IMG/VR virus record: IMGVR_UViG_3300045996_001539 | Span: 1 to 25,848 of that record | DNA length: 25,848 bases | Origin: a virus | Reading direction: 5' to 3' (one strand) | Shown: positions 3-17,135 of the stretch, in pieces | Numbering within the stretch: position 1 is the first letter of the stretch | Layout of the letters: every line of letters starts with the position of its first letter | Notes under the pieces: generated by a model | Told to the model about the DNA's origin: nothing | The model's database searches: none | The model's input: only the letters and a program-made list of their open reading frames with translations | Program-made: the position numbers and the translations under genes

Positions 3-2084
3 GTCCTGCTATCAGAAGCTACCGCGGTTGCCCGAGCGCTGCACAACCGCGATCTGACAAACGCCGTCTGGACAAAGACGAACTGCGCAGCAGTCAAGGA
101 TGTTGCCGGGATCGCCGGGGTCGCGAACAGCGCTAGTCGTCTCACGGCATCCGCGACCGGTGCGGTCTGTTCGCAAGCTATCACTGACGCCTCTTCGCGG
201 GCGCGGATCTTCTCGCCATTCGTCAAGCGCATCTCGGGCACCGGGACTGTCGAGATTTCGGTCGACGGCGGTACGATCTATTATGACGTTACGGAGAGTT
301 TAAGCACGGATGTCTGGACCCGTGTGAACACGACGGTTCAGACGCTTACCAATCCGAACGTACGCTTCCGGCTTGGCACGTCGGGAGATGTGATCGGGGT
401 CGATCTCGCCGGGTGCGTCGATGAGAGCAAGGTCAGCTCTCCGATCACGACCGCCGCCGCGACGGTTACACGTGCCAATGACGGGAACAACCTCCCGTTT
501 ACGTCGCTTCCGTGGTCGCCGGTCAGCGAAGGAACGCTGATCGTTACATGCAGCCGCCTAAATAGAACGCTGAACCTCCCTTTGTTCCGTATCGACGACA
601 CAACCGCAAACGAGCGTATTCAGCTTCTTAACGGGAGCAGCGGGGCGCTCGAATACAACGTTATAGATGGTGGCGTAACGTTGGCGACTGCTACTACGGC
701 GGCCGCCCCGGGCGAAGGTGTTATGTTCCGCGCCGCTATAACGTGGAAGTTGAACGACACTCGAATGGCTCTTAATGGTGTCTCTACGGCGAGAGATACT
801 GCCGTCACTATGCCAGCAACAACCAGGCTGCGGATTAATCCCGAAACTGGCCCTCTTAGAGTGAAGAGCATTGTGCTCTTACCAATATGGCTTGATAGCG
901 CACCACTGGCCGCGGCTACAGACTTCCCGTCAACCGGCCCTTTTGACGCAATCTCTACGACGGGCACGCCGACGCCCGTCATTGACTTGGGGACCGGCGA
1001 TTACGTCTTGGGCGGAGTTTCGTCAGACGGGCACATTGCGACGGCCGATTACGATGGGACAACTTACACCCGAGGAATCATCCAGTCCGCTTTCCAGCGC
1101 GACACTCATGCCTTTCCAGGTTTGCTGAGGCGTGCATCGGACGGAAAACTCATAGCCTCCTACTCGCAGCATAACGACAGCGCCAAGTATGTAGCGATCT
1201 CGACCAACGCTGATAGCGGAGCATTGTGGGGCACTCCGGCAAACGTGGATTCCCAACTCGGGCAATCAAACTACACATATACGTTCCTGCACCAAGTCGC
1301 CAGCGGCCGAATTTATATGTTCTACCGCGCTACGAACGCGGGGACAACGGACTGGACAACTCACTACAGCTATTCAGATGACAGCGGCGCCACTTGGAGT
1401 ACGGGTGTTCAAGTTCTGTGGGATGACCGCCCCTACATTATGACCCGGAAGACCGGCGCCAATCGGATCGACTTTATCGCCACCACCGGCCATCCGGATG
1501 CAGCAGTCAACGATCTCTATCACTTCTATATGGTGGACACGGCCGGCACGATCACTTGGCACGGAACGGACGGAACCTCTCTCGGAGCGCTCCCCCTCGC
1601 GGTGACCGCACCAACGAAAGTCTATGACGCTTCCGACAACGGTAATGTGGATGCCAATATCGCCTATGTCATGCGCGACGGCAGCGACAATCCGGTTGCT
1701 GGGTTCATTCGATATGTGAGCGGCAATACCCGGTTTTGTCAGGCCCGCTGGAACGGGACGGCTTGGGAATGGAAGCAAATAGCTGAGCAAGGGAATGTTG
1801 TCGGGCGGGCCACGCCAGATCCGAATGATCCAGATATTGCTTATTTCACTCGGCAGGTTGATGGGGCGGGGGCATTAGATACCGTCAGCGGCGTCGAGCA
1901 TATCTTCAAGGCTGCGATTAGTTGGACACCAGGAACTGCGGTACTTACCCAACTGACATCCGGCGCCACTCTTTGCATGATGCCGTATGTTCCAGAGGGC
2001 ACTGCGGAGAAATTGTTTTATACGACTGGCGTATTTAATAGCTCATCAAACTTCGACACTACAATAGTGGCGATGGATATCTGA
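3..2084 (+). CDS. Tail/receptor-binding protein with BNR (Asp-box) propeller, 5' end outside window
   Basis: The frame is open from the left edge to TGA 2082-2084, so the GTG at 324 is an internal codon and the true start lies outside the window. The first ~110 visible residues (LTNAVWTKTN, then SRARIFSPFVKR and GTVEISVDGG) look like the beta-sandwich carbohydrate-binding module common in phage tail proteins. A second beta-rich, LamG-like stretch follows (about nt 450-900). From about nt 1000 the pattern fits a BNR/sialidase-type propeller, with one good Asp-box (SDDSGATW, nt 1374-1397) and a degenerate one (NADSGALW, about nt 1206-1229). Likely role: binding or cutting surface glycans from the tail. 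The catalytic residues of true sialidases cannot be established, so enzymatic activity is an inference. The next gene starts 1 nt after the stop. Confidence 0.75.
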   Translation, partial: VLLSEATAVARALHNRDLTNAVWTKTNCAAVKDVAGIAGVANSASRLTASATGAVCSQAITDASSRARIFSPFVKRISGTGTVEISVDGGTIYYDVTESLSTDVWTRVNTTVQTLTNPNVRFRLGTSGDVIGVDLAGCVDESKVSSPITTAAATVTRANDGNNLPFTSLPWSPVSEGTLIVTCSRLNRTLNLPLFRIDDTTANERIQLLNGSSGALEYNVIDGGVTLATATTAAAPGEGVMFRAAITWKLNDTRMALNGVSTARDTAVTMPATTRLRINPETGPLRVKSIVLLPIWLDSAPLAAATDFPSTGPFDAISTTGTPTPVIDLGTGDYVLGGVSSDGHIATADYDGTTYTRGIIQSAFQRDTHAFPGLLRRASDGKLIASYSQHNDSAKYVAISTNADSGALWGTPANVDSQLGQSNYTYTFLHQVASGRIYMFYRATNAGTTDWTTHYSYSDDSGATWSTGVQVLWDDRPYIMTRKTGANRIDFIATTGHPDAAVNDLYHFYMVDTAGTITWHGTDGTSLGALPLAVTAPTKVYDASDNGNVDANIAYVMRDGSDNPVAGFIRYVSGNTRFCQARWNGTAWEWKQIAEQGNVVGRATPDPNDPDIAYFTRQVDGAGALDTVSGVEHIFKAAISWTPGTAVLTQLTSGATLCMMPYVPEGTAEKLFYTTGVFNSSSNFDTTIVAMDI

Positions 2085-2085
2085 G

Positions 2086-4104
2086 ATGGCCTACCCTACC
2101 GTTCGAGATCTGGAACACAGCTACACGGCGAACGAAGCGCCCGACGCCGACTTCCCGGGGACAGAGCTCGATAACGACCTGTTTAACGTCCTCACGACGT
2201 TGCAGGAGATCCGCGATTATCTTGAGCTGATCGGCACGTCAGAAGGACGAGTACGTGCTGCGGCAGTTCCTGACCTCCCCGCTGATATCGAAGACATCAT
2301 CGCCGAGATGGAAGCGCTTTTGGCAGCGACCGAGCTCGCCCGGGATGAGGCAGAAGCAGCTGCGGCTCCGATCAATGTAGCGACGGAAGCTGAAATCCTC
2401 GCCGCTGCAGATAACGCTAAACGCGTGACGCCGCTTGCGTTGACTTACATCCGATTACCGAAGCTGCCCGAAGCGTTCGGCTGGACAAGTGGCGGTTCAT
2501 TGGCGGCGCGTACAACCGCGATGAAGCTATGGGCGGCTGATAGCAGTCCAGCCCGGTTGCGGGCTAACACCGATTACACGATCGATATTTCCGGTGGCGG
2601 GCTGCTGGTCGCGGCCGGCAAAATTATCGAAGGCAATGGCGCTTGGGTGATTGACCAGACGAACCATGGGAAACTTGTCACGCTCGTTCCCGGCAGCGTC
2701 GATGGCGAGAGCGGCTATCTTCGTGGAGGCTGGAAAATCCACGGATTGAACCTGCGAGGCGCTCGGGCTGGAACAACCTACAACTCGGCTGGATACGGGA
2801 TTTATGTGTCGGGCACAGATAATGTGGGGGCAGGCACAGCCCCTACCTTTGTTAGCGAGTTCTGGCTGGACGATATTCGAATCGAGGATGTTGGTTTCGC
2901 TGGTTTGTGGGCGTTGTACCTTGCGGATACCAAACTAAATAACGTTAGAGTTAACGACGTTGGGTACGCCGGGAATATGTTTGTTTCTTGCTTTGGCGTC
3001 CGTTACACCCAACTACACGTTCAGGACATAGGCCCCGGTTCAGAAGCGCCTTCAACTCCTTCGACCTCTTACGGGTGTGCCGTAACGAAGTTTCCGAGTG
3101 GGGTTAGCGGGTACACCATCACAAGTGCTCCAGTTTCCACTGACTGTGTATTTGACGGTTGGCGAGTGCTGAACAACCCCTACTATACGGCAATGGACAC
3201 CCACGCAGGAGACTCGATAAAATTCCTTAACGGATACGCTTACAACGTTCATAAAGGAATTAACGTCGGGTACGATGTAGATAGTGCCGATGCTACGGGT
3301 GGCCGTGATTGTGTTGTAGCGAATAACTACGTTGAAGGCACCCTTAGCGCCAACAATTCCGGACTTATAAACGTTGGCTATGCGGGTGCTGCAAACGGTT
3401 ACGCCAGGAACAACAAATTCATCGGAAACACTGTAGTAAACTTCGGGTCTTTAACCACAGGGGGTGGTGGAGTATTCCTCCAGGGTACTCGTGGCGCTTT
3501 GATTGATGGAAACACTTGTCGAAATAGTCGTAGCCGGGGGATCATCGGGAATGGTGATAACCTCGATTGCGCAATTATCAACAACTACATTGACGAAGTT
3601 ACCGACAACGATGTCGATTACACTGCTATAGGTATTTCGGTTGATGCGGCTAATCACACCGGGGTCTTCGGTGGAAATAAATTCAAGAGAACTGGTGCGG
3701 CGTCTACAAGTATGAGCATCGCTTATAATATCGACAATTGGACAGGTGTTGAAGCCACATTCCTGGGTGGTGACGTGTTCAACGGAACGATGACTAAGTA
3801 CATTAAGGGGTCTAATGCAGTTTTTAAGAATAGTCCTCTTCAACAGGAGGGATCAGCTACATTAGCTGCGCTTACTGCAAATAACTTGGTTCAAGGTGTA
3901 GTTACATTCCCCGTTGCATTTTCCGTAGCTCCAAAAGTAATTGTAACCGGGCAAGGTCTCTTCAATAGCAAGGTGATCGTCATTAGCTGTGACCCAGCAA
4001 GTACGACTACCACGCAATGCACCATTATTGCTCGTACCGCCGATGCCACTACGTTTGGTGCGAACGGAAATATATCTGTGAACTGGATAGCAAGCGGCTA
4101 TTAG
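2086..4104 (+). CDS. Tailspike with adaptor, beta-helix and lectin-like C-terminus
   Basis: 672 residues. The ATG lies 1 nt after the preceding stop with no clear Shine-Dalgarno, so translational coupling is likely. Domains: residues 1-75 are an adaptor (MAYPTV, FPGTELDND, YLELIGTSEG) shared with the next gene. Residues ~78-125 are an Ala/Glu-rich coiled segment ending in NAKRVTPLAL, a motif frequent in phage tail proteins. Residues ~150-560 are rich in Asn, Gly and Val with short beta-strand periodicity, as in a right-handed parallel beta-helix. The last ~85 residues (VVTFPVAFSVAPKVIV ... VNWIASGY) resemble an H-type lectin domain. Probably a trimeric receptor-binding or polysaccharide-depolymerising spike; no catalytic residues can be assigned. 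The helix region is clearly richer in A+T than the flanking genes, which suggests acquisition from another source. Confidence 0.75.
   Translation: MAYPTVRDLEHSYTANEAPDADFPGTELDNDLFNVLTTLQEIRDYLELIGTSEGRVRAAAVPDLPADIEDIIAEMEALLAATELARDEAEAAAAPINVATEAEILAAADNAKRVTPLALTYIRLPKLPEAFGWTSGGSLAARTTAMKLWAADSSPARLRANTDYTIDISGGGLLVAAGKIIEGNGAWVIDQTNHGKLVTLVPGSVDGESGYLRGGWKIHGLNLRGARAGTTYNSAGYGIYVSGTDNVGAGTAPTFVSEFWLDDIRIEDVGFAGLWALYLADTKLNNVRVNDVGYAGNMFVSCFGVRYTQLHVQDIGPGSEAPSTPSTSYGCAVTKFPSGVSGYTITSAPVSTDCVFDGWRVLNNPYYTAMDTHAGDSIKFLNGYAYNVHKGINVGYDVDSADATGGRDCVVANNYVEGTLSANNSGLINVGYAGAANGYARNNKFIGNTVVNFGSLTTGGGGVFLQGTRGALIDGNTCRNSRSRGIIGNGDNLDCAIINNYIDEVTDNDVDYTAIGISVDAANHTGVFGGNKFKRTGAASTSMSIAYNIDNWTGVEATFLGGDVFNGTMTKYIKGSNAVFKNSPLQQEGSATLAALTANNLVQGVVTFPVAFSVAPKVIVTGQGLFNSKVIVISCDPASTTTTQCTIIARTADATTFGANGNISVNWIASGY
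2211..2247 (+). repeat. Near-identical 37-bp block, copy 1 (tailspike adaptor)
   Basis: This stretch encodes the RDYLELIGTSEG part of the adaptor and matches 4249-4285 at 36 of 37 bases; the only difference is T2223 versus C4261. Flanking adaptor DNA is much less conserved. The match points to recent duplication, gene conversion or recombination at the adaptor, which would allow spike bodies to be swapped. Confidence 0.85.
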
Positions 4105-4108
4105 GAGG
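4103..4108 (+). promoter_or_regulatory. Strong Shine-Dalgarno deciding a TTG start
   Basis: AGGAGG overlaps the stop codon (TAG 4102-4104) of the upstream spike gene and sits 9 nt before TTG 4118. No ATG or GTG is available in frame near it, and the protein begun at this TTG (AYPTV...) aligns from its first residue with the paralogous upstream spike. Confidence 0.85.
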
Positions 4109-4117
4109 TATATAGCT

Positions 4118-6337
4118 TTGGCTTATCCCACCGTCCCTAATGCTGATTACAGCTATCAGCAGTTCCAGCAGGCTCAGCAGGATAATGATTTTCCTGGGAC
4201 CGAGTTGGACAATGATCTGGCGAACCTCATCAACGCCTTGCAAGAGGTCCGCGATTATCTCGAGCTGATCGGCACGTCAGAAGGAAAGGTCCGGGCTTCG
4301 GCCGTTCCTAATCTCAGTGCTGAGATCGAAGCCGCTCTCGTGGATCTCAATACGGCTATCGCCACCGCCGAGGCGCTTCTGTCTCAGGTCGAGGCGACCG
4401 CCTCGCAGGCCGAAGCCGAGGCCGGCACAGATAACTTCAAGCGAATGACGCCTTTGCGGACCAAACAGGCTATCCAGCTTCGGGTTCGTAGCGTCACCGA
4501 TTTCGGCATCGCCAAGGACGGTACAGGGAACAGCCTCGCGACAGTTACGCAGCTGAACGAGGACGTAGCCTCCGGTGACGTGCCGAACCTCTACTGGCCG
4601 CCTGGCGATTACCTCTTCGATGATGGCGCTATTGATTTCAACGAAGCCCCGAACGGTCTGACTCTTTGGGGTGAAGGGCGTGAGCTGACTGAGATCACGC
4701 TCGCCGATGGCGCAGGTCAGAATGCGTTTGTGATTCGTAACACTGATTACATCCACGTTCGGGGGATCAAGTTCCGGAGCACTGCACCGGCTGCGGATTA
4801 TCAGCATACCTTCCAACTTATGAACTGCAATTATTCCGTGACGGAATGGTGCGAGTTCGACGGCGCCGGGGGCTACGGTTGGGGTTGCTACGAGGATACG
4901 GTTGCAAATCCCGATGTTGAAGCGGTATGTAATTACAACACTGTGCGACATAACATCATAAGGGACGCCAGCCAATATGGAGTTCAACACTTCCCGAAGG
5001 TGCGCTCTTCCGGGTTTTGGTGTCACGATAACCTTCTGATAAATTGCGGGCACAATGCACAGGGGCTCGTTGTTCCTACGGCCATACTGCCGTCAGCTAT
5101 CAAAGGGGGCCAGGCAACTGACAATTCATACGTTTATAACAATGTTATTTTCGCCGCTGAAAACGCGGCCGGATTGGATTACGGGAACTTTGAGGACCTG
5201 TGGTCTGATAACAATACGGTATATAATTGCGAACAGCAGTTCATGGCTATCTCGATCGGCGAGCACCCGAGCCTATTACCGTACGTAGCCTCGCATCGTC
5301 GCCTCGTTTCTCGTGGTGATCGCTTTATCATGGAGCCGGGAGCCGGGACTCGCGTCGTACCCGCGATCACCATCTCCCAGGATGCCACCACATCATGCGA
5401 TCTTGTCCGGATCGAACGTCCTTACATCGAAGGCGACAACTACACGAATTCCATCCTAGCCAACCCGTCAGGAACGTTGCCGCGAGTAGAAATCATTGAG
5501 CCCACGATCGTCGGCGATTTCCCTGCAGCTTCGATCGTCATTTGGGCTAACTGCGATGAGAACAGCGGCGACATCACCGGGCTGATCATCAAAGACCCGA
5601 CGATCATTCATACGGGCGCGACAGCTCGCTCTGTCCTACGAGCGATCCAGCTGCAGAGCTGTGATGACGCCCGCTTGCTCGGTGGCTATTTCAAGGACAT
5701 GGGCGAGAATGTCCTAGACATCCGGACGAGTCCGCGGGCGTTCGTGAAGGGGGCGACCTTCGACGGCTACAACCGTGTGAACACGGCTGGGGTCGCGGCG
5801 ATTGCGATAACAGATACAATCGCGAATGAGTATTTCGTCGAGGATTGCAGCCTGTTGGAAAACGACGGCAATCCGAAGGGGCTCGTCTCGGCTTCGACGG
5901 CGACGCCTGAAATCCATCTCGGCAACAATCTATTGCCTGTCGGCGTATCGGAATATCTAGGTACGACGAACGTTGTACGGAATACTCCGGGGGTGCAGAC
6001 GACGGGCACATTAACAACGGCTCCGACCTCCGGAACCGGGACGCTTACAACGGCGTCCATGTCAATGAAGTGGACTAAGCTCGGACGGCTCGTGCATTTC
6101 GATGCAAATATAACAATCACGACTCGGGGCACAGGAACCGGGAATCTTATTCTGGCACTGCCTTTTACACCGGCGGAGCAGTTCACGGCTATGGGTCGCC
6201 AAAATTCTGCTGGGTTTGAGGTTGTGGCGATTTCCTCTCTGAGCACGCTTCTTGTGCGCAAAACGGACGAAACCACTGCGCTGACCGCCGATGGAATAAC
6301 CTTAACGGTGAGCGGCGACTACGTGACCGCGGCTTAG
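4118..6337 (+). CDS. Second tailspike, paralogous adaptor, beta-helix body
   Basis: 739 residues, started by TTG 4118 behind AGGAGG. Residues 1-75 repeat the adaptor of the preceding gene (MAYPTV ... FPGTELDNDLANL ... YLELIGTSEGKVRASAVP). An Ala/Glu coiled linker and NFKRMTPLRTKQAI follow. Residues ~130-600 show beta-helix features: strand-turn repeats with Asn ladders, such as LWGEGRELTEITLADG, YIHVRGIKF and YNTVRHNIIRDAS. The last ~110 residues are Thr/Gly-rich and contain MKWTKLGRLVHFDANI, like C-terminal beta-sandwich or trimerisation domains of phage spikes. Likely role: a second host-surface polysaccharide binder or depolymerase attached through the same tail adaptor. The stop codon overlaps the stop of the convergent polymerase gene. 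Confidence 0.75.
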   Translation: MAYPTVPNADYSYQQFQQAQQDNDFPGTELDNDLANLINALQEVRDYLELIGTSEGKVRASAVPNLSAEIEAALVDLNTAIATAEALLSQVEATASQAEAEAGTDNFKRMTPLRTKQAIQLRVRSVTDFGIAKDGTGNSLATVTQLNEDVASGDVPNLYWPPGDYLFDDGAIDFNEAPNGLTLWGEGRELTEITLADGAGQNAFVIRNTDYIHVRGIKFRSTAPAADYQHTFQLMNCNYSVTEWCEFDGAGGYGWGCYEDTVANPDVEAVCNYNTVRHNIIRDASQYGVQHFPKVRSSGFWCHDNLLINCGHNAQGLVVPTAILPSAIKGGQATDNSYVYNNVIFAAENAAGLDYGNFEDLWSDNNTVYNCEQQFMAISIGEHPSLLPYVASHRRLVSRGDRFIMEPGAGTRVVPAITISQDATTSCDLVRIERPYIEGDNYTNSILANPSGTLPRVEIIEPTIVGDFPAASIVIWANCDENSGDITGLIIKDPTIIHTGATARSVLRAIQLQSCDDARLLGGYFKDMGENVLDIRTSPRAFVKGATFDGYNRVNTAGVAAIAITDTIANEYFVEDCSLLENDGNPKGLVSASTATPEIHLGNNLLPVGVSEYLGTTNVVRNTPGVQTTGTLTTAPTSGTGTLTTASMSMKWTKLGRLVHFDANITITTRGTGTGNLILALPFTPAEQFTAMGRQNSAGFEVVAISSLSTLLVRKTDETTALTADGITLTVSGDYVTAA
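4249..4285 (+). repeat. Near-identical 37-bp block, copy 2 (tailspike adaptor)
   Basis: Second copy of the block at 2211-2247, with 36 of 37 bases identical, at the equivalent codons of the paralogous spike. Confidence 0.85.
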
Positions 6338-8097
6338 TCTTTTCGGTAGCGCTTTCCGCGCCATCCTGACGCTGTGAGCGGCAATCCGTCTGCCCAGGCA
6401 GGCAGCTCGCAGATCAGCCGTTCGAATGTCCCTACGTCGCCCCAGCCGCGCGGTACTTCGGTTATGATCTCGTCGTGGACGTGGCCGATGACCGGATAGC
6501 CGGCCGCTTCCGCTTTTCGGATGCCATTGGCGAGAAGATCCCGGGCGATCGCCTGAACGATGTTCTCGAAAGCCAAGCCGCCGTAGAGGGCGAAGCGCTC
6601 CCACTTCTTCGTCACGCTGTTGACGCCTAGCGCCGTTGGCATCGGACGCCGCTCTCTTTTGTCCTCATCCTCTTCCGGATCGGCCCACGGCACGATCATC
6701 TCCCGGATCGCAGGCTTTCCGTAGGCCAGGCATCGGCCAGACGGAAGCCGGCACCACAGGAAGCCATTCTTGACGAGATAGGCGGCCCGGAGCACGTCGA
6801 TCTTCTGTCCTGGGTTGAGGATCGCTTCCCAGATCGCCCCTTCGAGTAGCTTCCAGGAAGCGGCGATCGCCGGGTTGGTGGCGCGCCAGCCGACCTTGAC
6901 GAGCTCGGCCGCCAGCCATGCTTCTCGGGAGAGATGTTGTGCAGCCATTTCGTTACGGGCGAAGCACTCATCGTAGCGATCTTCGGCTCGTTCACAGCGG
7001 TCTGGTATGGCGGCATCCCAGATGGAATCGAATATCTCATCGAGATCCAGACCGTAAGCCTGGGCGAATTTAAGCATGGCACCAACACCGCCTTGGTACC
7101 CAAATGCGAGCTCGGCGACTTTACCGACCTGTCGGCGGTTATCTTTTTTCGATATTCTGTCAGCCGAGATGCCGTAGATTCCGGCAGCGGTACGACGATA
7201 CATGTCTGGAAGGGTCGGATCGGCGAGGACACCGAACATCGCGTCCAGCTTCCATTGCTCGCCGGCGAACCAAGCTTGAACGGCGCCTTCGATGCCGGTG
7301 TAATCTGCTACAAGCAGGTCATGGCCCGGGGCCGCCCAAATGAACCCGCGGATGGCGTCGGCGAGCAGATGGAGGGTTTTACCGATTTCATCACCGTAGA
7401 GGAATTTGAGCCATTCGGGATCGGCCAACCGAATGGCTTGGAATAGTGTTCGGGCGTCAAGGTGTGCGTCAGAGAACTGCTTACGGGGTCGGGGCAGGTT
7501 GTGGAGCTGGGCGCCCACACTGCTCCAACGGCCAGTGCCAGCAGCACTAAAAAGAAAAGCGCCCCTAATGCGGCCGTCTTTGCTGCATCGATCCAAGAAG
7601 GTTTGGAGTTTCGAGACCGAAGTTTTTGCGGCTTCCTGACGGAGTTCGATGGCGCGCTGGACATGTTCGGGTATCCTTTCTTTCAGTATGGCATCGACAT
7701 CAGCTTTGGCGAGAGACGGCAGTCGGATATTCTCTCCTCGTATCCATGCAGTTAGCTGCTCGACCGCCGTGTAGGTGTCTATGGCGTGACCGGTGACGCG
7801 ATACAGACTGTCATTTAGCTTCGCTCTCGCCTTCTCGGCGAGTTCGATAGCGGCAAATGCTGACTTGATGTCGATCCGGATGCCGCGGTCATTGATGCGC
7901 TGATCGAGAACGAAGAGTTCCTGCTCCTCAGTGGAGAGTGGGATCATCCGGCGATGCGCTTCGACCTCTGTGCGAACGTCGTCGTCGCAGTAGTCGTGGA
8001 AGCGCTCGAAATCCTCCGGGAAATCTTCCGGTGAATTCCAATGAAGGGTCACTATTATATTATTCCCATGTAGCGCCAACAGGCCGCTATTATACAC
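6334..8097 (-). CDS. Family A DNA polymerase, polymerase part plus Exo III motif (split gene)
   Basis: Replicative DNA polymerase of the Pol I family. In the 587-residue reading from GTG 8097: Exo III motif Y36-x3-D40 (DYCDDDV), motif A D265-YTGI-E270, motif B R322...K326 with ELAFGYQGG, and motif C H541-D542-E543 (GHVHDEI). All polymerase catalytic residues are therefore present. The Exo I and Exo II motifs are missing here and sit in the separate upstream ORF 8135-8593, so the proofreading site is divided between two frames. The frame is open only back to 8121 (TAG at 8122-8124). Possible starts are GTG 8097, TTG 8079 and GTG 8052, none with a good Shine-Dalgarno (GGGA lies 11 nt before 8052). 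Homology to other polymerases appears to begin near SPEDFPEDF, about nt 8037. The TAA overlaps the stop of the convergent spike gene. Confidence 0.88.
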   Translation of the reverse strand: MYNSGLLALHGNNIIVTLHWNSPEDFPEDFERFHDYCDDDVRTEVEAHRRMIPLSTEEQELFVLDQRINDRGIRIDIKSAFAAIELAEKARAKLNDSLYRVTGHAIDTYTAVEQLTAWIRGENIRLPSLAKADVDAILKERIPEHVQRAIELRQEAAKTSVSKLQTFLDRCSKDGRIRGAFLFSAAGTGRWSSVGAQLHNLPRPRKQFSDAHLDARTLFQAIRLADPEWLKFLYGDEIGKTLHLLADAIRGFIWAAPGHDLLVADYTGIEGAVQAWFAGEQWKLDAMFGVLADPTLPDMYRRTAAGIYGISADRISKKDNRRQVGKVAELAFGYQGGVGAMLKFAQAYGLDLDEIFDSIWDAAIPDRCERAEDRYDECFARNEMAAQHLSREAWLAAELVKVGWRATNPAIAASWKLLEGAIWEAILNPGQKIDVLRAAYLVKNGFLWCRLPSGRCLAYGKPAIREMIVPWADPEEDEDKRERRPMPTALGVNSVTKKWERFALYGGLAFENIVQAIARDLLANGIRKAEAAGYPVIGHVHDEIITEVPRGWGDVGTFERLICELPAWADGLPLTASGWRGKRYRKD

Positions 8098-8134
8098 CCA
8101 CAGGTAAATCCAAACACGAGTCTATCAAAAGTGT
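8038..8134 (-). other. AT-rich insert separating exonuclease and polymerase ORFs
   Basis: On the minus strand, the ~95 nt after the exonuclease stop are AT-rich and unlike the GC-rich flanks. They hold two copies of TATAATAG (8094-8087 and 8059-8052), 35 bp apart, and between them a short hairpin (AGCGGCC-TGTT-GGCGCT, one bulged G). The exonuclease frame closes with TGA 8137 and again with TAA 8092. The polymerase frame is closed by TAG 8124. The ORFs are in different frames, so suppression of the first stop cannot join them. The TATAAT boxes could act as -10 elements, but no -35 box at normal spacing is visible. The nature of the insert (new promoter/leader, bypass or spliced element, or simple lesion) is open. 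Confidence 0.6.
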
Positions 8135-8593
8135 TCACGACTTATCCTTTCGTGATTTTCTTGGCGCCCTCGGCGTATATGGCATCGAGAACTTCTTGAT
8201 TAATGCTGCCCCTCGCTTGTCTTTCTGGACAGGTAGGTCGAGCGCTGAGCCCAGCCCAAAAAGATTGCGCGGCAGTGACAGGGCCGCAGCGGTCGCAGCT
8301 GTGCAGACGAACTGCTCGGTTTTGGCTTCCGGCCAGCCGTAGCGGGGCGTCAGGATCATCTGCCAGAGCAGACGCTCGAACTGCGCATTGTGGGCGGTGA
8401 TCGTGCCGCCGCTCTCGACGTGTGCTCGGATGTCATCCGGACAGGGGTCCGGTGGGCGCCAGCGGCGGATCTCGCCGTCGATGATGTAGGAAGCCATCAG
8501 GGGGCGGGTGTGCGGCGACTCGAAATAGACGTAGGCGCCGCGCCGACGGATATCGACATCGGAGGTCGTTTCGAAATCGATATGGAGCGTCAT
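8135..8593 (-). CDS. 3'-5' exonuclease part of DNA polymerase (Exo I and Exo II motifs), truncated domain
   Basis: 152 residues matching the start of phage family A polymerases. Exo I is D6-F7-E8 (HIDFET). Exo II is around H68-N69 with E73 (TAHNAQFER; Glu at the usual Asp position, as I recall from related phage enzymes). It ends just after the KDKRGAALIKKFSMP segment, where relatives continue into the Exo III motif. Exo III lies in the downstream polymerase ORF, so this protein alone lacks one catalytic metal ligand. The basic tail (PRAPRKSRKDKS) leads straight into TGA. The ATG 8593 overlaps the methyltransferase stop (ATGA), so it is translated as part of the operon. It may re-associate with the polymerase fragment or be fused to it by an unusual decoding or RNA event. 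Confidence 0.85.
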   Translation of the reverse strand: MTLHIDFETTSDVDIRRRGAYVYFESPHTRPLMASYIIDGEIRRWRPPDPCPDDIRAHVESGGTITAHNAQFERLLWQMILTPRYGWPEAKTEQFVCTAATAAALSLPRNLFGLGSALDLPVQKDKRGAALIKKFSMPYTPRAPRKSRKDKS

Positions 8594-15193: not shown

Positions 15194-15356
15194 CGAATTC
15201 CTCCTTAAGGAAGTCTATGGTCCGAACTGACGCCTGCGATAGTATAGAATTCGCTTCGTCGTCGTTAAATTCGTCCATCATTATCCCCATGATGACTATT
15301 TGATTTTGTAAGATTAAATTAATACCACGAGATATTACGTCCTCTGCGTTGTTCAT
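15180..15356 (-). CDS. Small AT-rich ORF (58 aa) between RusA and DUF6378
   Basis: ATG 15356 overlaps the RusA stop (ATGA), with GAGGGG about 8 nt before it. The ORF ends at TGA 15180-15182, 14 nt inside DUF6378, and its last codons contain the DUF6378 Shine-Dalgarno. The peptide has a hydrophobic helix (GINLILQNQIVIMGIMM) followed by an acidic, soluble C-terminus (DEFNDDEAN ... FLKEEFGEQG). The codons are much richer in A+T than the neighbours, so it may be a recent arrival. No family is recognised. Coupling at both ends supports translation. Confidence 0.6.
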   Translation of the reverse strand: MNNAEDVISRGINLILQNQIVIMGIMMDEFNDDEANSILSQASVRTIDFLKEEFGEQG

Positions 15357-15808
15357 GCGAAGATCCCCTCTGCTGGATTTTGCCGAACCTCGACGAAGAG
15401 GCCAGGCTTGTCGGAATAGAACTTCCGCTGCCGGTTATCGACGATCTGTCGGTCGTCAACCCAGACAACTAAATTGAGCGCATCACATATTTTTGAGAAA
15501 TTATCACAATCCGGTTTGACGGTCGGGCGGAGGGCGCCGGAGCGGGCCGCCTCTTGCCGTTTCTTCGGCCAGGATTGCGGAATCGGAAGGTGAATTAGTA
15601 TGTCGACCCATAACGGCCCATCGAGCGGCGGAAGATCGCCCATCACTTGCTCGGCGACGTAGCGTAGGGCGCCCATGTAGTCTCGCGTCTGTTCCGGGAG
15701 ATAATGATGTGCGCTGTCGCGAGTGCTGCTCATAGCCTGCTTGCCGCGAGGACGGCCGAGAAGAGCAAGTCTGATTACGTTTCCGTGTCTGCCGGAAAAA
15801 ATCTCCAT
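15353..15808 (-). CDS. rusA: RusA-type Holliday junction resolvase
   Basis: 151 residues, first gene of the minus-strand operon. RusA family signs: LLGRPRGKQA near the N-terminus, YLPEQTRDYM, and the metal-binding core RPTVKP-D100-x-D102-N103-xx-K106 with DALN and V117-D118-D119-RQIVDNRQRKFY. Family members are homodimeric nucleases that cut four-way junctions symmetrically and thereby resolve recombination or replication intermediates before packaging. ATG 15808 has no clear ribosome binding site; the family's usual start lies near VIRLALLG, 10 residues further in, where no standard start codon exists, so 15808 is kept. The upstream 108 bp hold the divergent control region. Confidence 0.88.
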   Translation of the reverse strand: MEIFSGRHGNVIRLALLGRPRGKQAMSSTRDSAHHYLPEQTRDYMGALRYVAEQVMGDLPPLDGPLWVDILIHLPIPQSWPKKRQEAARSGALRPTVKPDCDNFSKICDALNLVVWVDDRQIVDNRQRKFYSDKPGLFVEVRQNPAEGIFA

Positions 15809-15839
15809 AGCGCAATTACTGACGCGGTTTGAATCGGTT

Positions 15840-15869
15840 CGTCAATCCCCTTGACGTCGTATATCGTCA
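15840..15869. promoter_or_regulatory. Divergent control region with overlapping inverted repeats
   Basis: CGTCAA-TCCCC-TTGACG (15840-15856) is a perfect 6-bp inverted repeat. Its arms read TTGACG outward on both strands, like two back-to-back -35 boxes. A second inverted repeat, TGACG-N8-CGTCA (15852-15869), overlaps it. On the plus strand a weak -10 (TACCTT, 15875-15880) lies 18 bp from the right box. On the minus strand only poor -10 candidates (AGTAAT) are present at 19 bp. The region lies between RusA and the lone plus-strand gene and is a plausible promoter/operator. Inferred from spacing and symmetry only. Confidence 0.4.
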
Positions 15870-15916
15870 TGGACTACCTTGGCGAAGCTGATCAAAGGAG
15901 CGTTGGAGGCAGCATA

Positions 15917-16177
15917 ATGATCCATCTACCGGACCCTAAAGATCTTGCTACAGCCCTCGAAACCTCAAATTGGAAAGGCGTTTCCATAGGCAACAAGGTG
16001 TTGATCAAAGCTGCTATCGAATGGCTCCGGTATATGAGCGAATCGATGGGCACGAGTGCCCAAAATGAACGTTTTTTGTCGGCCGACACGCCCTACACTG
16101 ATCCGAAAATACCCGGTCCTGTCTTCGGCGAATCGACTAACTGCTTGCCGGTCAACACTCTGGACAAACCCGACTAA
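15917..16177 (+). CDS. Hypothetical 86-aa protein, lone plus-strand gene
   Basis: ATG 15917 has GGAGG (15905-15909) at 7 nt spacing and is preferred over an in-frame TTG at 15851, which lies within the inverted-repeat region. Visible features are a central helix (GNKVLIKAAIEWLRYMSES) and a Pro/Asp-rich C-terminal tail without obvious structure. There is no clear helix-turn-helix or membrane segment, and no family is recognised. It stands alone, divergent from the early operon and convergent with the late operon (18 nt to the transglycosylase stop), and has lower GC than its neighbours. The position is typical of a phage regulator or accessory gene, but the sequence does not prove this. Confidence 0.6.
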   Translation: MIHLPDPKDLATALETSNWKGVSIGNKVLIKAAIEWLRYMSESMGTSAQNERFLSADTPYTDPKIPGPVFGESTNCLPVNTLDKPD

Positions 16178-16194: not shown

Positions 16195-16833
16195 CTAGCC
16201 GAACGAGCTCGGCCCGCTGAATAGCGCCAGCCGTCGCGCCCGATCGGCCGCCGCACGCTCTGCCTGCGCTTCGGCCACCACGTTAACCATCGGAGTGTTT
16301 GCATCCGGCACGAAGGCAGGTTCCGGAGTGAGGAACAGTGAGGCGATCGGCGAAGGGGCGGGAACCGGCGTCGTGGCGGGGGTCTGTGCCACGACTGCCG
16401 GCCCGGAGCGCCCGAGCAAAGCAGCCGCCTTTGCCCGATGCGCGTCCATCTGATTGAGCACCTTGTCTCTTACCGTGCCTGGGGCGCCGCCGGCGGCCGT
16501 ATCGGAAGCGCCGTAGCGTCCGACCTTCCCGGCGTTGATAGCCGAGTAAACGTCGAGCAGACCGTGCCCGGGGCGCACGCCGGCTTTGCGCAGATACTTC
16601 TCCACAGCCCGCAGTTGATCGGCTACCGGCATACCTTGCCGGACGCCATACTCAGCTCGCTGAGGCTCGCCCCACTGGATCAAGCCGCGATGCTGGCCCC
16701 ACTTCGTCGTCGGCCCGGCTTTCCAGGGATCGAATGTCCCGGCCGTCTCATAGGAGATCGCCGTCGCCAGGTCGACCGGATCGATGCCGAGATTTTCGGA
16801 GGAAGCGAGGATTGCCGCGGCGAGATCATCCAT
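16195..16833 (-). CDS. Lytic transglycosylase-like virion/lysis enzyme
   Basis: 212 residues from ATG 16833, in a TGATG overlap with the 100-aa gene. Residues ~1-125 fit an SLT/lysozyme-like fold: DDLAAAILASSENLGIDP, the catalytic-Glu segment AISYE29TAGTFDP, KWGQHRGLIQWGEPQR and VEKYLRKAGVRPGHGLLDVYSAINAG. The following ~90 residues are Pro/Ala-rich and disordered and end in an Ala/Arg helix. It cleaves peptidoglycan glycan strands. Being last in the ejection-protein operon, it more likely opens the wall during DNA entry than at final lysis, though it could do both. No signal peptide is seen. Confidence 0.78.
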   Translation of the reverse strand: MDDLAAAILASSENLGIDPVDLATAISYETAGTFDPWKAGPTTKWGQHRGLIQWGEPQRAEYGVRQGMPVADQLRAVEKYLRKAGVRPGHGLLDVYSAINAGKVGRYGASDTAAGGAPGTVRDKVLNQMDAHRAKAAALLGRSGPAVVAQTPATTPVPAPSPIASLFLTPEPAFVPDANTPMVNVVAEAQAERAAADRARRLALFSGPSSFG

Positions 16834-17135
16834 CAGCGACCGCCAAATAGCCGTGCTATCAAGCTGGGCATCATATCTGGTCGAACCTGAGCGAATGTGT
16901 CGTCGACCGTCTCCTGAAGATTGCCGTAAGTTCTTTTCGGCCATTGCTCTATCTCAAAGAGCTTATCCTGCAAGATCATTGCGGCGCGTTCTTCAGGAGA
17001 CGCGCGCACGAAATCCGCATCTCTCTGACCCCAGAAGGAATCGTAGCCCTGCTTCCAACTCAGACTATGCGGGTGCATATTTTGCAGCTTTCGCCGCGCT
17101 GTACCTTCTGGGCTGAACAGATCTGCTAAAGTCAT
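16833..17135 (-). CDS. Hypothetical 100-aa phage protein
   Basis: ATG 17135 overlaps the stop of the 937-aa gene (ATGA), and its own TGA shares a base with the transglycosylase ATG. A soluble, mostly helical protein rich in Arg, Gln and Trp (WKQGYDSFWGQRDADF, EERAAMILQDKLFEIEQWP) ending MPSLIARLFGGR. No known domain is recognised. Position and coupling suggest a small virion component or a chaperone for the ejection proteins. Confidence 0.7.
   Translation of the reverse strand: MTLADLFSPEGTARRKLQNMHPHSLSWKQGYDSFWGQRDADFVRASPEERAAMILQDKLFEIEQWPKRTYGNLQETVDDTFAQVRPDMMPSLIARLFGGR

Follow-up and report, generated by a model that had tools for sequence, protein, structure and literature searches.

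Gene order, repeats and candidate promoters in front of the replication operon

The DNA analysed here (hereafter the window) is a linear record of 25,848 bases, IMGVR_UViG_3300045996_001539, examined over its whole length. Three tail-type genes precede a long array of minus-strand genes that runs rightwards from 6.3 kb, with a single exception, an 86-aa gene that is the sole plus-strand gene to the right of 6337 (Table 1). The order on the minus strand is DNA polymerase (in two pieces), DNA methyltransferase, nucleotide phosphatase, ssDNA-binding protein, exonuclease and SNF2 helicase, followed by a DUF6378 protein, RusA and then a lysozyme- or peptidase-like gene with virion genes. The 86-aa gene is located in the slot between rusA and the lysozyme-like gene, the latter being convergent with it and forming the other border of the slot. 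The G+C content of the slot is 50-51% (50% for the 86-aa gene) as compared with 58.6% for the whole window.

The DNA polymerase gene was found split in two frames over 6337-8593, with an exonuclease part at 8138-8593, a polymerase part at 6337-8097 and about 120 bases between the parts, which correspond to one continuous protein in the relatives. The split may be due to a frameshift, an insertion or a sequencing error.

Table 1. Features at and around the slot, with window coordinates and the evidence for each assignment
Feature	Position	Strand	Evidence or remark
Three tail-type genes	324-6337	+	
rusA-type Holliday junction resolvase, here first gene of the replication operon	15353-15808	-	ATG at 15808; Pfam PF05866, E 8e-29; phrog_140
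Candidate -10 AGTAAT, 19 nt from the minus -35 (alternative CAGTAA at 18 nt)	15815-15820	-	Inferred
TGACG/CGTCA half-sites, n=4, alternating orientation (15820, 15840, 15852, 15865)	15820-15869		Weak against chance
Left repeat arm, candidate -35 TTGACG towards rusA	15840-15845	-	-10 score rank 4 of 34 TTGAC sites; rank 3 of 51,632 positions with spacer penalty
Right repeat arm, candidate -35 TTGACG towards the 86-aa gene	15851-15856	+	Rank 1 among 34 TTGAC sites and among 51,632 positions
Candidate -10 TACCTT, 18 nt from the plus -35	15875-15880	+	
Shine-Dalgarno GGAGG, 7 nt before ATG 15917	15905-15909	+	
86-aa gene, in the slot of the relatives' integrase and repressor	15917-16177	+	
Helix-loop-helix module of the 86-aa protein, residues 9-39, ALE...W..VSIGNK..I.AAI..L	15941-16033	+	Alignment A4; AlphaFold helices
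Lysozyme- or peptidase-like late gene	16195-16944	-	phrog_21656 peptidase, E 3e-7; phrog_4928; relatives

An earlier reading made from the letters of the sequence (the sequence-only reading) had described two overlapping inverted repeats in the 108-nt gap between rusA and the 86-aa gene. Both were confirmed as exact, CGTCAA-N5-TTGACG at 15840-15856 and TGACG-N8-CGTCA at 15852-15869, and an extra TGACG, absent from that description, was detected at 15820. A search for further copies returned the full pattern only once in the 25,848-base record. When the gap was shuffled by dinucleotides, 14% of the shuffles contained a perfect 6-bp inverted repeat with a 3-10 nt spacer, as did 196 of 954 phage segments of the same 108-nt length; since such repeats are so common in both, the inverted repeat is not significant as such, its candidacy as an outstanding regulator site by itself was rejected, and any meaning has to come from its context only. 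The occurrence of at least four TGACG/CGTCA half-sites within 108 nt was rare, being observed in 0.02% of the gap shuffles. Another cluster of four such half-sites, together with a GTCAA-N9-TTGAC pair, is present at 919-1026 inside a tail-type gene and was taken as chance. A minus-strand ORF of about 31 codons starting from an ATG at 15870 was also considered and rejected as a gene, neither length nor homology being in its favour; the ORF overlaps the candidate promoters.

The two arms of the first repeat had been proposed to resemble back-to-back -35 boxes. This proposal was evaluated with a promoter matrix built from those candidates of the related phages showing at least 3 of 6 matches in the -10 element (27 of 33, omitting the two L012 candidates, those on the early strand in L039, L042 and L052 and the one on the repressor strand in L055), the -35 element being fixed by choice as TTGAC. 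As the arms rank among the best promoter-like sites of the record under this matrix, the proposal appears to be a fair reading of the sequence. When the -10 score among TTGAC sites was considered, 9 of 300 shuffles produced a divergent pair scoring this well at any place in the 25.8 kb. The candidate minus promoter is weak, with a spacer of 18-19 nt and a poor -10, and a simple E. coli-type promoter scan found no promoter at the gap. The plus candidate predicts a leader of about 30 nt containing the GGAGG sequence.

The start of rusA was compared with that of six distinct relatives whose loci fitted the search expression. The homologous start codon is ATG, GTG or TTG in these relatives and GTA in the window, and translation must therefore begin upstream; the rusA frame here opens ten codons upstream, at 15808. 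The minus-strand transcription start is predicted to fall at or beside the A of this ATG, with no Shine-Dalgarno sequence ahead of it, a configuration that would make the rusA mRNA leaderless. A set of 171 mapped leaderless transcription starts, all with AUG, is given for S. meliloti in PMC3616915.

The 86-aa protein and its N-terminal module

The 86-aa ORF is preceded by the strong Shine-Dalgarno sequence attributed to it in the sequence-only reading, and, as that reading also stated, no fold was recognised in its product, here with the libraries searched. Neither Pfam, NCBIfam nor PADLOC returned a match, and PHROGs gave matches only at E 0.2. The AlphaFold model consists of two helices (residues 7-16 and 24-49) and a disordered tail, the mean pLDDT of blocks over residues 1-40 being 88-96. 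Fold searches with this model returned nothing at E <= 0.001, the best viral match being a protein without a name aligned over 33 columns with 45% identity and E 0.11, and three PDB matches of the sequence profile (E 0.1-0.3) were judged to be chance. The protein is acidic, with a pI of 5.0 and a charge of -3.4. A tblastn search of 50,697 phage records produced 10 records at E <= 1, with the best match in Escherichia phage AVIO78A (51% over 43 aa, E 3e-6). On the basis of this match and of the conserved module described below, we consider the 86-aa gene to be coding.

The part common to the protein and its relatives corresponds to its first 40 residues, and alignment A4, comprising 11 rows including the 86-aa protein, displayed 10 invariant columns. 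The protein conforms to the module pattern A-L-x4-W-x5-G-[ND]-K-x2-I-x-A-A-I-x2-L. The module occurs either at the N terminus or internally in proteins that are otherwise dissimilar, encoded by loci L118, L119, L121, L124 and L129-L131, by phages of Klebsiella, E. coli and Pseudomonas and by rhizobial phages or prophages; in the module protein of Pseudomonas phage SS2019XI the C-terminal part matches a Lar-like restriction alleviation family. Of the pattern matches, 5 of 40 in IMG/VR loci and 3 of 23 in genomes were confirmed, one of the latter being doubtful; 4 of 297 genomes belonging to the family of a Rhizobium also contained the module, as did 11 phage records when another member served as query. 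The genome match L125 was rejected as a module protein, no matching ORF being present. The conservation of the repeats and of the gene, on which the sequence-only reading had made its proposal depend, was thus divided: neither the exact repeat with its flank nor close homologues of the 86-aa protein were found in viral_contigs, whereas the N-terminal module is conserved.

No family corresponding to these residues was found in Pfam, PHROGs, NCBIfam or PADLOC; the results point to a module of about 35 residues that recurs among phage early proteins and is absent from these four libraries. AVIO78A_100, from Escherichia phage vB_EcoS_AVIO78A, and the Klebsiella, Pseudomonas and rhizobial phage or prophage proteins share with the 86-aa protein the signature ALE...W....GNK..I.AAI..L, while their C-terminal parts are unrelated to it. 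Moreover, genes of the AVIO78A_100 type lie inside operons of small early genes, whereas the 86-aa gene stands alone opposite rusA.

The corresponding slot in related phages

Related loci were collected via RusA, the lysozyme-like protein, an SNF2 alignment and an internal virion protein, with the addition of Rhizobium phage RHph_N65 (MN988536); a search of the literature on RHph_N65 and bean rhizobia phages returned nothing on RHph_N65. After removal of L047, L057 and L060 as duplicates, counts were made on 22 non-redundant loci carrying SNF2 and a Cro-like gene designated CRO80, the occurrence of CRO80 in 22 of 22 being a consequence of this choice. As CRO80 has no match to a Pfam family, and the same is true of the P105 protein, the term Cro-like is a reading from its place and look.

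RHph_N65 and the uncultured loci L009-L012 and L038-L060 share with the window the order SNF2 helicase, RusA, control slot and late genes, with divergent promoters proposed here at the slot. At this position, bordered by the lysozyme-like gene and the rusA operon, the relatives carry an integrase in 20 of 22 cases and a CI-like repressor in 18 of 22, both opposing the Cro-like early gene. L039 showed neither integrase nor repressor, L041 breaks off at the expected integrase, and L012, L046 and L053 have an integrase with no repressor match. In L046/L047 and L053, the region between the integrase and CRO80 contains no recognised repressor and the integrase lies directly at the divergent promoter. 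As L041, L043, L044 and L054 end before or inside the slot, their labelling as lacking an integrase in the tree reflects truncation. The SNF2 search (L038-L060, n=23) included three loci without CRO80, namely L043, L044 and L054, all ending before the slot, and L141, found via the internal virion protein, contained integrase, repressor, CRO80 and rusA.

Whole-record searches were carried out on 11 records, showing PF00589 in 9 and PF01381 in 8 of them; G305 (L047) had no HTH_3 match. The relatives searched in this way measure 40-53 kb, as compared with the 25.8-kb linear fragment examined here. Neither PF00589 nor PF01381 was detected in the window or in the whole record of L039, and the RHph_N65 repressor and integrase matched HTH_3 and Phage_integrase. 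Remnants of the integrase, repressor, CRO80, P105 and HNH proteins were searched for in the window by tblastn, and among the matches listed none was credible, these being scattered with a best E of 0.017.

Most relatives display TTGAC boxes on both strands between the repressor gene and CRO80, and GGACA-N3-TGTCC operators, counted at one mismatch at most, were found at the switch (within 550 nt) in 14 of 22. A wider region adds one operator-bearing relative, L051, and the number without an operator falls from 8 of 22 to seven. In L039 two perfect operators flank a TTGACT promoter (locus positions 5000-5800). The window contains no GGACA-N3-TGTCC within one mismatch and 12 within two, one of which lies at 15794-15806, at the start of rusA. 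The slot of the RHph_N65 type, with integrase, CI-like repressor, Cro-like gene and in most cases these operators, therefore differs from that of the window, where none of them was found in 25.8 kb. The sequence-only reading had considered the gap a divergent control point, and its location just ahead of the replication operon, in the same place as the lysogeny switch of the relatives, supports that view.

A tree was calculated from SNF2 and exonuclease sequences (27 taxa, 845 columns) and rooted on L062-L065. The phage of the window nests inside the integrase-bearing clade with support values of 0.974-0.994, and L039 is placed elsewhere in the same clade with L038 and L012 (support 0.995). 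L039, a 49-kb record (IMGVR_UViG_3300017432_000001) with neither integrase nor HTH_3 over its whole length, has kept the Cro-like gene and the operators. This nesting among integrase-bearing phages, taken with the lack of integrase, repressor, Cro-like gene and family operators in the window, suggests that a lysogeny module was probably lost, and two separate losses, one in L039 and one in the phage of the window, would be the simplest reading of the tree. The displaced start of rusA agrees with this direction of change, in which the switch module vanished from the slot.

A probable vacated slot and its counterparts

We favour, as a reasonably probable interpretation of these comparisons, that the ~390 bp separating rusA from the lysozyme-like gene once accommodated a lysogeny switch and are now its vacated slot. 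Like most of the relatives, the ancestor would have carried integrase and repressor genes in one direction and a Cro-like early gene in the other, with divergent promoters and with operators between or beside them. The integrase, repressor and Cro-like genes, the P105 gene that follows the last of these, and the operators would then have been lost, as far as the sequenced half of the genome shows, leaving a compact pair of divergent promoters whose -35 boxes are the repeat arms, 5 bp apart. The minus promoter would drive the replication operon, the rusA mRNA probably being leaderless and starting at about 15808, and the plus promoter would drive the 86-aa gene; as the two are so close, a polymerase on one should block the other. 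In the absence of operators the early operon would be switched on at once after infection and would be blind to the repressors of related prophages, and a phage with such an unrepressed operon should be obligately lytic. The presence in the slot of an intact foreign gene rather than a clean deletion counts against this interpretation. In a stronger form, which we regard as unlikely, the whole immunity switch has been replaced by the operator-free promoter pair, with polymerase occupancy alone setting the ratio between the replication operon and the small protein; the latter, endowed with an adaptor-like module common to many early effectors, would act almost alone on the host. Being blind to the immunity conferred by related prophages, such a phage would correspond in nature to a lambda vir mutant.

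The phage might instead still be temperate, although this is not the probable reading. Half of the genome is unseen and a repressor, with or without an integrase, could reside there, the TGACG/CGTCA cluster at 15820-15869 then being a new type of operator; its four half-sites overlap both -35 boxes, and the lack of the GGACA site at the switch of eight relatives indicates that operators vary within the group. However, each of the nine integrase-bearing relatives has one integrase match in its whole record, located at the slot in the loci retrieved, and the comparable cluster in the tail gene weakens the case for the half-sites as operators. Somewhat more doubtful is an artefact of assembly, a chimera, or a decaying 86-aa ORF left over with no function. 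No other record with this type of slot was found, so that a misassembly has to be weighed, and the record also carries an interrupted pol gene; nevertheless, the flanking genes keep the family order, and the 86-aa gene combines a good Shine-Dalgarno sequence with a module conserved at the protein level in unrelated phages.

The suggestion of the sequence-only reading that the 86-aa protein may itself be a new regulator of the divergent promoters has in its favour that the gene adjoins them on the opposite strand, where the relatives keep their repressor. We consider it very unlikely, as neither Pfam nor NCBIfam gave an HTH match and no other DNA-binding match emerged; moreover, the product is acidic and is modelled as two helices and a disordered tail, even if a model of this type might miss an unusual fold, and its kin belong to accessory early clusters of other phages, away from repressor operators. 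These features speak for a protein-contact module over a DNA-binding switch protein, and the most likely role of the 86-aa product is that of an accessory early protein, like those bearing the module elsewhere; the anti-host role also proposed for it is possible. The least probable reading is that lysogeny was gained by the relatives, the lineage of the window having lacked the module from the outset and its small gene and promoters representing the ancestral state. In its favour, the distant loci L061-L065 have no integrase or repressor match, but the phage of the window nests inside integrase-bearing lineages, and L039, in which neither integrase nor repressor is present, has retained the Cro-like gene and a pair of perfect operators.

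Under the vacated-slot interpretation, one control locus would occur in three states within one phage group, namely the full switch of most relatives, the state of L039, with operators and without integrase and repressor, and the state of the window, where the operators are gone too. It is predicted that lysogens of relatives with a matching repressor should block L039-like phages and should not block the phage described here. The latter has probably lost dormancy and would always kill its host, an instructive rather than an extraordinary case.

A precedent is mycobacteriophage D29, which, according to PMC5712189, is lytic and derives by deletion from a temperate parent of the L5 type; D29 retains functional integration genes as well as repressor-binding sites and is still homoimmune. 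D29 and the phage of the window would both be virulent relatives of temperate phages arisen through loss of the immunity region, and, as for D29, temperate-type relatives with the region intact were found here, with the phage placed among them in the tree. The two differ in that neither integrase nor operators were found in the 25.8 kb and that a foreign small gene occupies the slot. L039, in which operators are retained with no integrase or repressor, represents a D29-like state and, since it keeps its operators, is closer to D29 than the phage of the window.
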